Positions 8,778 to 27,972 of a stretch of DNA of 30,408 nucleotides are shown here, in pieces. The stretch is from positions 1-30,408 of IMG/VR virus record IMGVR_UViG_3300030294_000566; one strand, 5' to 3'. This stretch comes from a virus. The notes below the pieces were generated by a model. That model was not told the DNA's origin and did not search any database. It was given only the letters and a program-made list of their open reading frames with translations. The position numbers and the translations under genes are program-made. Each line of letters begins with the position of its first letter. Position 1 is the first letter of the stretch.

Positions 8778-9305
8778 TTATTTTGTCTTTTTTGGTTTTA
8801 TAGTCATTTGCATTCTTTTACCTTCTAATTTTGGCATAGACTCTGCCATACCAATACCATCCAATGCTTCAACAAACTTCAATAGTTTAACTTTACCTTG
8901 ATCTTGATACACTATCTCTCTTCCTTTAAAAAACACTGATAGTAAAACTTTATTACCTTCAGATAAAAAGTTTTTTGCGTGAGTTAATTTAAAATTAAAA
9001 TCATGCTCATCAATATTAGGAGTCATTCTAATCTCTTTCAGCTCTGCTTGATTTTGTTTTTGAACTTTCTTTTGTTCTTTTTCTTTTTTCTTTTTGTCAT
9101 AAAGAAATTTTTCATAATCAACAATTTTACATATAGAAACGTTATCATTAGATGATATTTCAACTAAATCTAATTCCATTTCATCAGCAAGTCTAAGTGC
9201 CTTTCTAGTGTCTAATACACAATTTTCAACATTATCTCCAACTAATCTAACACTTTGATTTGTAATAAATCTATTGATTTTGTTTTTAATTTCTTGTTTA
9301 GCCAT
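8778..9305 (-). CDS. infC: Translation initiation factor IF-3
   Basis: The 175-aa product is full length (bacterial IF-3 is about 170-180 aa). The N-terminal domain reads VRLVGDNVENCVLDTRKALRL and ELDLVEISSNDNVSICKI, then DYEKFLYDKKKKEKEQKK as the start of the linker helix. The C-terminal domain has EIRMTPNIDEHDFNFKL and ends in basic KRMQMTIKPKKTK. IF-3 binds the 30S subunit, blocks premature 50S joining and checks the start codon. The start is ATG, unlike the AUU of E. coli infC, so that autoregulation is not expected. It is the first gene of the operon. No ribosomal protein genes (rpmI, rplT) follow, which argues against a host infC locus. Confidence 0.95.
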   Translation of the reverse strand: MAKQEIKNKINRFITNQSVRLVGDNVENCVLDTRKALRLADEMELDLVEISSNDNVSICKIVDYEKFLYDKKKKEKEQKKVQKQNQAELKEIRMTPNIDEHDFNFKLTHAKNFLSEGNKVLLSVFFKGREIVYQDQGKVKLLKFVEALDGIGMAESMPKLEGKRMQMTIKPKKTK

Positions 9306-23970: not shown

Positions 23971-24000
23971 TTGTATATTTAAAAAAATTGTGTATCTTTG
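23971..24000 (+). promoter_or_regulatory. Promoter of smpB
   Basis: TTG (23971-23973), a 19-nt spacer and TATCTTTG (23993-24000), 21 nt before the smpB ATG at 24022. It is one of the clearest promoters in the window. Confidence 0.82.
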
Positions 24001-24021
24001 TACAAAATAAATAACATTAAA

Positions 24022-24465
24022 ATGATAGTTAAAAATAAAAAAGCATCTTACGAATATGAATTACTTGATGATTTTGTGTCAGGTATTGTATTGGTTGGAA
24101 CAGAAATAAAATCAATAAGATTAGGTAAAGCATCAATTGCTGATAGTTATTGTGCATTTCAAGGAGATGAATTGTTTTTATTGAACTCACATATTGATGA
24201 ATATGAATTTGGTAATAGATATAATCATGAGCCAAGGAGACCAAGAAAACTTCTACTTAAAAAGAAAGAATTGTATAAAATTCGTAAAAAAGTAAAAGAA
24301 AAAGGTTTTACTATTATAGCAAAAAATATGTTCATAAACGATAAAGGACTTTGTAAAGTTACAATTTGTATTGCAAAAGGTAAAAATACATACAGTAAAA
24401 AAGAACATATCAAAGAAAGAGATATTAAAAGAGATACAGATAAAATATTAAAATCTTATAAATAA
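24022..24465 (+). CDS. smpB: SsrA-binding protein SmpB
   Basis: The start is the ATG at 24022, because the frame upstream runs into the promoter. The 147-aa product (E. coli SmpB is 160) begins MIVKNKKASYEYELLDDFVSG and has GTEIKSIRLGKASIADSYCAF, SHIDEYEF, NRYNHEPRRPRKLLLKKKEL and GLCKVTICIAKGKNTYSKKE. It ends in a basic tail, HIKERDIKRDTDKILKSYK. The OB-fold body and the tail that acts in the ribosomal A site and mRNA channel are both present. SmpB delivers tmRNA to stalled ribosomes. A phage gene could work with host tmRNA or with a phage RNA. Its TAA overlaps the next ATG by one base. Confidence 0.95.
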   Translation: MIVKNKKASYEYELLDDFVSGIVLVGTEIKSIRLGKASIADSYCAFQGDELFLLNSHIDEYEFGNRYNHEPRRPRKLLLKKKELYKIRKKVKEKGFTIIAKNMFINDKGLCKVTICIAKGKNTYSKKEHIKERDIKRDTDKILKSYK

Positions 24466-27182: not shown

Positions 27183-27214
27183 TTTGGTCGAATGAAAACT
27201 TTATTGTAATTTTA
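27183..27214 (+). promoter_or_regulatory. Repeated promoter, copy 2 (interrupted tRNA)
   Basis: TTTG (27183-27186), 20 nt, TAATTTTA (27207-27214). It is the same repeat as copies 1 and 3 but with two changes in the -7 box. It lies 18 nt before the interrupted tRNA-like gene. Confidence 0.65.
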
Positions 27215-27232
27215 CATACAAATTAAAAAGAT

Positions 27233-27419
27233 CGGTTGGTAGCTCAATAGGTAGAGCAGTTGGATTAGTCTATAGCTAATCGTATTAATAAGAAAAAATT
27301 TTAAAGAAGTAAGAAATTCAATACAATTAGCTAATGTTGAGAATGTCTGAAAATGAGAGATTAATATTGTTAATATCAAAACAGGCAAAAGATAGGGGGT
27401 TCGAATCCTTCCCAACTGA
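27233..27419 (+). tRNA. Interrupted tRNA-like gene (about 115-nt insert)
   Basis: Both ends are good tRNA. The acceptor stem CGGTTGG (27233-27239) pairs with CCAACTG (27412-27418, one G:U), with discriminator A at 27419. The D-arm is GCTC-AATAGGTA-GAGC (27242-27257). The T-arm is GGGGG-TTCGAAT-CCTTC (27395-27411, two G:U pairs). Between D-arm and T-arm there are 137 nt instead of about 22. The 5' part of an anticodon stem could be GTTGG (27259-27263), but no matching CCAAC lies before the T-arm. A local hairpin GATTAG-TCTATAG-CTAATC (27263-27281) would present a 7-nt loop with UAU in anticodon position but C at position 33. CCA is not encoded. The amino acid is undetermined. Confidence 0.6.
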
Positions 27420-27435
27420 CAACAAATTATAATAA

Positions 27436-27906
27436 ATGGGAAAATTGTTAGTCTTTAAAAATCATGAAGATTTTCCATTTGGAAATAAACTTCAAATCAG
27501 GATTAAAGAACCTATGGGAATAAAAGAATGTCCATATTTATATAGATGGACATTTATTATTTTCGGTTATACATTTAGATTGCATCATTGGCTTAGGTCA
27601 GATGATAGACGTTATTTCCATGATCATTCATGTGATTTAATATCAATAATAATAAAAGGTAATTACTTTAATGTAATACCAGATGAAAACGGAAATCCTG
27701 TTAAGTATTTAGCTAAAGCATGGAAACCACGTTTTATGAAAGCAGAACAAAGACATTACTTAGATATCCCAAAAGAAGGTGCATGGACAATTTTATTGTG
27801 TTCAAAACCATATCATAAATGGGGATTCTATGTGAATAACCACAAATGGAGACCATTAAGATATTTTCATAAGTTTGGAATTATTCAAACAGAAGATTAT
27901 CAGTAA
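27436..27906 (+). CDS. Cupin-like metal-binding protein
   Basis: This 156-aa protein has FRLHHWLRSDDRRYFHDHSCD at about residues 48-68, then LISIIIKGNYFNVIP, RFMKAEQRHYLDIP and WTILLCSKPYHKWGFY. The HDH pair followed by a later histidine, on a background of beta strands, is typical of a cupin jelly roll binding a metal. I recognise similar uncharacterised phage proteins. The substrate is unknown. It starts 16 nt after the interrupted tRNA and may share its promoter. Confidence 0.8.
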   Translation: MGKLLVFKNHEDFPFGNKLQIRIKEPMGIKECPYLYRWTFIIFGYTFRLHHWLRSDDRRYFHDHSCDLISIIIKGNYFNVIPDENGNPVKYLAKAWKPRFMKAEQRHYLDIPKEGAWTILLCSKPYHKWGFYVNNHKWRPLRYFHKFGIIQTEDYQ

Positions 27907-27940: not shown

Positions 27941-27972
27941 TTTGGTAGATTGAAAACTTTATTGTACTTTTG
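27941..27972 (+). promoter_or_regulatory. Repeated promoter, copy 3
   Basis: TTTG (27941-27944), 20 nt, TACTTTTG (27965-27972). It is nearly identical to copy 2 over about 45 nt (27925-27970). It drives a short unit ending at the terminator at 28207-28240. Confidence 0.82.

Follow-up and report, generated by a model that had tools for sequence, protein, structure and literature searches.

tRNA-like RNA and cupin gene in the window

The window analysed here comprises positions 1 to 30,408 of the viral record IMGVR_UViG_3300030294_000566 (W; positions are those of the window, and L-numbers denote loci of relatives). Near its end lies a tRNA-like RNA, followed after 16 nt by a co-directional gene for a cupin. 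The cupin gene, absent from the earlier note on this DNA, is key to the context of the RNA. The features of the locus are as follows.

27183-27216, plus strand: promoter-like block, Bacteroidota-like (TTTG ... TTGTAATTTTA), of which 27183-27208 is repeated exactly in the window
27233-27419, plus strand: tRNA-like RNA; acceptor, D and T arms tRNA-like, an insert parting the anticodon-stem strands
27233-27239, plus strand: 5' acceptor strand CGGTTGG (C1), pairing with 27412-27418 in the Rfam tRNA alignment; C1-G72 is a family signature
27242-27257, plus strand: D arm GCTC-aataggta-GAGC, from the Rfam tRNA alignment
27259-27263, plus strand: 5' strand GTTGG of the weak anticodon stem, from the family alignment
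27264-27379, plus strand: 116-nt insert following position 31 and preceding position 34; every W-type relative has it
27263-27281, plus strand: first hairpin, GATTAG-loop-CTAATC; stem invariant and loop replaced among relatives
27380-27384, plus strand: positions 34-38 (AAC A G) with valine-type A35 and C36, from the T-arm and variable-loop register and the family triplet pattern; invariant in W-type relatives
27385-27389, plus strand: 3' strand GCAAA of the anticodon stem, register set by the T arm, the variable loop and the family alignment
27395-27411, plus strand: T arm GGGGG-ttcgaat-CCTTC with G50-U64 and G51-U63 wobbles, from the sequence
27412-27419, plus strand: 3' acceptor strand CCAACTG and discriminator A73, from the sequence
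27436-27906, plus strand: cupin gene, 156 aa, matching phrog_4786 'cysteine dioxygenase' (E 1.2e-23)

The Rfam tRNA model aligned over exactly 27233-27419, skipping the middle, which bears out the earlier proposal that acceptor, D and T arms pair across 187 nt. The score (26.4 bits, E 0.0019 in 401 bp) was beneath the Rfam cut-off of 29 bits, and at default settings neither ARAGORN nor Rfam detected the RNA. The 7-bp acceptor stem (CGGTTGG/CCAACTG) includes one G-U pair, T8 and A9 are present between the acceptor strand and the D arm, and the elbow elements (acceptor, D and T arms, TTC and GG) are all in place. With a scanner that demanded the acceptor, T arm and D arm and left the middle free, the background was only 0-0.4 hits per Mb, which excludes a chance occurrence of this RNA.

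The anticodon arm is indeed discontinuous, as had been noticed from the sequence: GTTGG faces GCAAA across the insert, and only three pairs form (U28-A42, U29-A41 and G30-C40). An elongator-type 7-nt anticodon loop with U33 is absent, and 116 nt open the loop. Since the stem is weak, the assignment of positions 34-36 in W rests on the family and is the least certain of those made here. The hairpin described at 27263-27281 is present, and so is the repeated block above the RNA: its 27183-27208 portion recurs exactly at 27941-27966 (shuffles predict 0 such copies), and we infer that it functions as a promoter. The phage encodes SmpB, as had been stated (23998-24462, PF01668, E 7e-52). It also encodes a full-length translation initiation factor IF-3 (8781-9305).

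A PDB sequence search using the cupin gave no significant match, and the 'cysteine dioxygenase' label is to be read as an annotation only, taken over from phrog_4786. An AlphaFold model (pLDDT 90) has a cupin fold; Foldseek against the PDB found similarity to HppE, oxalate decarboxylase and ergothioneine dioxygenase (E ~1e-5 to 1e-4, TM ~0.5). His62, His64 and His107 are invariant in an alignment of 56 sequences and form a predicted 3-His metal site.

Three near phage types (the window, L003 and L006) bear the same RNA. Its tRNA part is identical at 55/55 compared positions, while fourfold sites of the cupin differ at 12-19% (81-88% identity), indicating that the RNA gene is not decaying. The insert behind the first hairpin retains 86-94% identity, which is about the conservation of the fourfold sites and alone would not prove that the insert is functional. 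In the first hairpin, the stem is unchanged and the loop varies in length, with 7 nt in W, 6 nt in L006 and 17 nt in L003.

Linkage of the RNA to the cupin across phages

DNA similarity searches with the W locus and seven related RNAs of cultured phages gave no match because these RNAs diverge fast, and a protein route was therefore needed. Relatives were collected by cupin searches; most lie on metagenomic contigs, and counts cover the matches listed, up to 80 loci in one of the searches. Among these, an abnormal tRNA-like RNA was found within ~1.1 kb of nearly every cupin relative, in ~60 other phage lineages; the sole clear miss among the cupin relatives examined was L092, where the RNA was not found. 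The RNA usually lies directly upstream of the cupin, lies directly downstream in L037, L040, L052, L077 and L079, and is one gene away in L025, L026 and L039. Cultured phages with the linked RNA include Caulobacter, Brevundimonas and Rhizobium phages: two tandem copies each in Brevundimonas phage Bajun and Caulobacter phage CcrPW, those of CcrPW being insert-bearing and lying at ~251.2-251.7 kb; at least one in CcrColossus; and one in Rhizobium phage RHph_Y1_11, which shares sequence with the beginning of a CDS annotated as a methyltransferase. That CDS (EVC30_106, L044:3246-3965) starts inside the tRNA-like RNA, and the ~80 residues at its N terminus probably reflect a mis-annotation in which the RNA was translated. 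Between two and four tandem tRNA-like RNAs were also seen beside one cupin at L056:2600-2978, L067:2150-2620 and L086:2830-2990; in L056, two copies have G73 and an anticodon hairpin lengthened to a GCAA tetraloop.

Thirteen more distant phage cupins, from Mycobacterium, Gordonia, Pseudomonas, Marinobacter, Burkholderia and Paraburkholderia phages and Brevundimonas phage Fanboy, had no such RNA within 1.5-3 kb. In a tree of 76 cupins, a single branch parts the RNA-linked from the RNA-less set (SH-aLRT 99). The cupin was the only gene common to all 19 neighbourhoods compared. A small SAM methyltransferase-like gene lies directly before it in L026, L042, L043 and L044, and a RidA-like gene is found in L025 and L039; being present in only 4 and 2 of the 19 neighbourhoods, respectively, these are not core components.

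Ordinary tRNAs are numerous in these phages and mostly clustered elsewhere. Genome-wide scans of CcrPW (308 kb) and of the L029 phage (317 kb) found no insert-bearing tRNA other than that beside the cupin, and we read the other long hits as chains of adjacent ordinary tRNAs. Near the module in L010, L011, L012 and L039 there are tRNAs with a CUA anticodon (called Pyl by ARAGORN), suggesting possible amber recoding in these phages.

Sequence signature and anticodon loop of the family

We compared 52 cupin-linked RNAs with 96 other tRNAs from the same loci. C1-G72 was found in 41 of the cupin-linked RNAs and 7 of the others (Fisher p 3e-19), and G50-U64 in 35 and 8, respectively (p 8e-14), p-values that overstate independence since the lineages are mutually related. 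A73 was present in 47/52 as against 58/96. Among the cupin-linked RNAs, 33/52 had G3-C70 and 21/52 an encoded CCA.

In a parse blind to the triplet, A35 was found in 46/54 cupin-linked RNAs as against 20/64 controls. Where the same parse gave a 7-nt loop, position 33 was A or G in 8/10 members; in the controls it was U in 58/64 and C in 6/64. Assigning misparsed long members by eye raised A35 to 70/71, a curated count that is weaker than the blind one, and the following residue in this set was C in 48, A in 12 and U in 11. The triplet classes NAC, GAA and GAU track the cupin tree, with 10 changes compared to 31.7 in shuffles. Most relatives have NAC, and W itself would have AAC in the register taken from the family. 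Deviants exist: L031 and L071 retain U33, L039 has UUC, and L056 includes copies with G73.

Decoding incompetence takes one of several forms in the family: U33 is missing from the anticodon loop, this loop has 6, 8 or 9 nt, or a structured domain as long as ~200 nt is grafted into the anticodon, D or variable loop. Members without an insert in this loop include those with AUACAU (6 nt, L014), AUUUACAU (8 nt, L029), AGAACAU (7 nt with G33, L054) and CAGAUGA (7 nt with A33, L097 and L100). The structured domain is mostly in the anticodon loop; it is in the D loop in L029, L053 and L071 and in both loops in L028, and insert-bearing members often have an enlarged variable region. In 21 of the 33 inserts tested, an upper helix closes directly above the anticodon stem, so that ~5-8 nt are left over and the triplet lies on the 3' strand. 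The variable element is thus the anticodon loop on its 5' side, where 2 nt (positions 32-33) are normal and 1 to ~200 nt occur here; W fits this pattern in having AACAG ahead of the 3' stem strand, though its stem is weak. No universal insert motif was found, k-mers being at about the shuffle level except within subclasses, such as CATGACGATGG in rumen phages. In that rumen-phage subclass (L057, L059, L060, L063 and L064), the helix around CATGACGATGG is made of wholly different yet complementary sequences. Hairpin loops of the UAGCUA type appear similar in W, L025, L026, L058, L062 and others.

We also observed inserts in other tRNAs of these phages. Ordinary tRNAs of rumen megaphages carry inserts of ~105 nt just after the anticodon (L058:3834-4013, L062:1395-1572, L062:1682-1857 and L065:2202-2376). 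These are an Arg (TCT) tRNA, a TCA tRNA and a Tyr (GTA) tRNA, scoring 50-55 Rfam bits; their inserts have a similar 5' motif, about TACGGAATTATCCACCGAAACGGAT, match no Rfam intron family, and could possibly be a separate class of very small tRNA introns. In L026, a phage that also has a cupin-linked RNA, a true group I intron (70 bits) lies within a tRNA-Asn gene (1766-1989).

Alternative explanations

An insert at the usual intron place, in a phage group whose rumen members have other tRNAs interrupted after position 36/37 by ~105 nt, their anticodon arms being otherwise intact, and in which the tRNA-Asn of L026 holds a group I intron, could be a small novel intron, self- or protein-spliced, that leaves a normal decoding tRNA-Val-like molecule after its removal. 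As the earlier note had said, the insert lacks a group I core: searches with RF00028 found nothing in W (E 10) or in L042-L044 (E 0.5), and the library used does detect the L026 intron. No Rfam intron model fits W or the Caulobacter-type RNAs, nor did any other Rfam family match either of them. Archaeal-type tRNA introns have a bulge-helix-bulge motif where the exons join and need a splicing endonuclease; in the relatives of W, no consistent junction was seen. In intron mode, ARAGORN gave each of three near-identical relatives a different anticodon and different cut points, and its splice solutions therefore conflict. Inserts also occur in the D loop of the four loci named above or in the variable region, and the upper helices put the triplet in an internal loop and not at an exon junction. 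Insert-free members, too, are without U33 or have a loop of 6, 8 or 9 nt, and because they are themselves decoding-incompetent, an intron of an unrecognised type, which the earlier note had listed among its options, is improbable. Decay of a tRNA, another of those options, or a chance arrangement would agree with the sub-threshold Rfam score and the weak anticodon stem. However, the tRNA part is invariant in three relatives whose cupin genes have diverged at fourfold sites, and the signature and cupin linkage are kept in dozens of lineages, so that we regard this reading as very improbable. Still less can be said for a tmRNA-like partner of the phage SmpB. The SmpB gene lies 2.8 kb upstream and the RNA is tRNA-like with an altered anticodon arm, but the D stem is intact, no tag frame is evident, in agreement with the first reading, and the Rfam tmRNA model (RF00023) had no match in W. 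SmpB is encoded in just 2/30 phage records with the module, and bona fide tmRNAs lie elsewhere in 7 of the records (G007, G009, G014, G019, G020, G023 and G025), which makes this partnership extremely unlikely.

Two further explanations accept the RNA as functional. It may act as a decoy that sequesters a host factor, either a synthetase or a nuclease with which a defence system attacks tRNAs, and the cupin would then contribute to counter-defence separately or as an auxiliary. That phages use tRNAs against anticodon nucleases is known, the RNA keeps a tRNA elbow and a hydrophobic-type triplet while decoding is lost, and fast-changing loop insertions would suit an arms race; a decoy alone, however, would not explain why the RNA is so strictly tied to a single clade of enzymes, or why C1-G72, A73 and G50-U64 recur so uniformly, and we consider it rather unlikely. 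Alternatively, the RNA could be a non-catalytic scaffold or regulator of the cupin, including punctuation for mRNA processing, that is never aminoacylated. The 16-nt spacing in W and the adjacency of RNA and cupin in both orders, mostly with the RNA upstream, are consistent with such a role. The conserved A35 and A73 and the encoded CCA point instead to charging, an ordinary tRNA would suffice as punctuation, and copies downstream of the cupin or separated from it by a gene do not fit punctuation; this explanation, too, seems unlikely. Of the regulatory tRNA-like RNA that the earlier note had entertained, the tRNA-like and non-ordinary character thus stands, and regulation is only one among the possible uses with the cupin.

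Proposed function

We conclude that the RNA very likely has a function, does not decode, and forms a two-part module together with the cupin. Somewhat better than even, in our judgement, is the fuller explanation set out below, in which a phage-encoded non-decoding tRNA-like RNA works with the adjacent cupin metalloenzyme. The module and the non-decoding design are well supported; the charging and the chemistry are what we infer from sequence features.

Since the grafted domain opens the anticodon loop, the W RNA should not read codons. Aminoacylation with a hydrophobic amino acid has, we estimate, about an even chance. In bacteria, the identity elements are A73, G3-C70, A35 and C36 for Val, A73, A35 and U36 for Ile, and A73, G34, A35 and A36 for Phe (PMC9976931). 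The family retains these elements but has lost the geometry for decoding. Because A73 and A35 with C36, U36 or A36 are among them, host ValRS may charge the W-type RNA, and IleRS or PheRS may charge those of sister clades. The host enzyme would be responsible, as no class I Val/Ile-type synthetase was found in 30 phage records. The C1-G72 pair counts against the Val reading, as it is an identity element for proline and not valine in bacteria; it may be read by the cupin or another factor.

Pairs 49-65, 50-64 and 51-63 of the T stem tune EF-Tu binding (PMC11231383; PMC4052509), and the unusual G50-U64 may therefore keep the RNA from EF-Tu. The opened loop together with this T stem would hold the charged RNA off the ribosome, and perhaps off EF-Tu, as a dedicated carrier or substrate for the cupin. 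The cupin could then alter the amino acid while it is attached to the tRNA, by oxidation or some other reaction, or could be regulated by the RNA; that it acts on the charged RNA we propose only tentatively. The most economical account would have a dedicated aminoacyl-tRNA pass to the cupin and not enter translation. Possible rather than probable is an undescribed phage aminoacyl-tRNA-dependent pathway, in which a decoding-dead mimic is charged by the host and its hydrophobic amino acid is modified by the dedicated cupin.

A search of open-access papers found no literature on such an RNA-cupin module, and the RNAs appear to form a widespread, undescribed family of phage-encoded tRNA look-alikes. 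They are unannotated in the regions examined of CcrPW, CcrColossus, Bajun and RHph_Y1_11, and the cupin is labelled hypothetical or 'cysteine dioxygenase'. The module is thus an RNA-protein system of large phages overlooked by annotation, and its RNAs would be naturally occurring mimics of tRNA in which recognition by a synthetase is uncoupled from decoding. Whether phages divert aminoacyl-tRNA to non-translational chemistry could readily be tested with it, at once in the cultured Caulobacter phages.

Comparison with known systems

Group I introns in tRNA genes share with the phage RNA an insert in the anticodon loop; the phage inserts, however, match no group I core, are too short, occur in other loops as well and have no consistent exons. 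A tRNA-like end that does not decode is also found in tmRNA, from which the phage RNA differs in its intact D stem, the lack of a tag frame and the lack of linkage to SmpB. Y RNA-like (YrlA) RNAs are likewise bacterial RNAs that mimic tRNA arms. Their partner is a Ro protein, whereas that of the phage RNA is a cupin, and YrlA scores were only sub-threshold (24.1 bits compared to 69 for one Caulobacter-type copy).

The valine-type tRNA-like structures of plant viruses (TLS-Val), such as that of TYMV, keep A35CAC38, are structurally heterogeneous, and in some cases carry large stem-loop insertions and can still be valylated (PMC9976931). The phage RNAs resemble them as viral tRNA mimics with a valine-type triplet, often A35CAU38 in place of A35CAC38, and in their great structural heterogeneity and large insertions. 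Unlike TLS-Val, which are pseudoknotted 3' ends of plant and insect virus RNA genomes, the phage RNA is a stand-alone gene in a DNA genome, with a separate 5' strand, a 7-bp acceptor stem, C1-G72 and an enzyme partner. In Staphylococcus aureus, non-proteinogenic tRNA-Gly for peptidoglycan is kept out of translation by T-stem changes that weaken EF-Tu binding (PMC4052509). The phage RNA is, similarly, a candidate dedicated tRNA with an unusual T stem (G50-U64, as counted above). The S. aureus tRNA-Gly serves peptidoglycan ligases (Fem) and departs from ordinary tRNA-Gly in the T stem and D loop, whereas the phage RNA has no intact anticodon loop and is partnered by a cupin.
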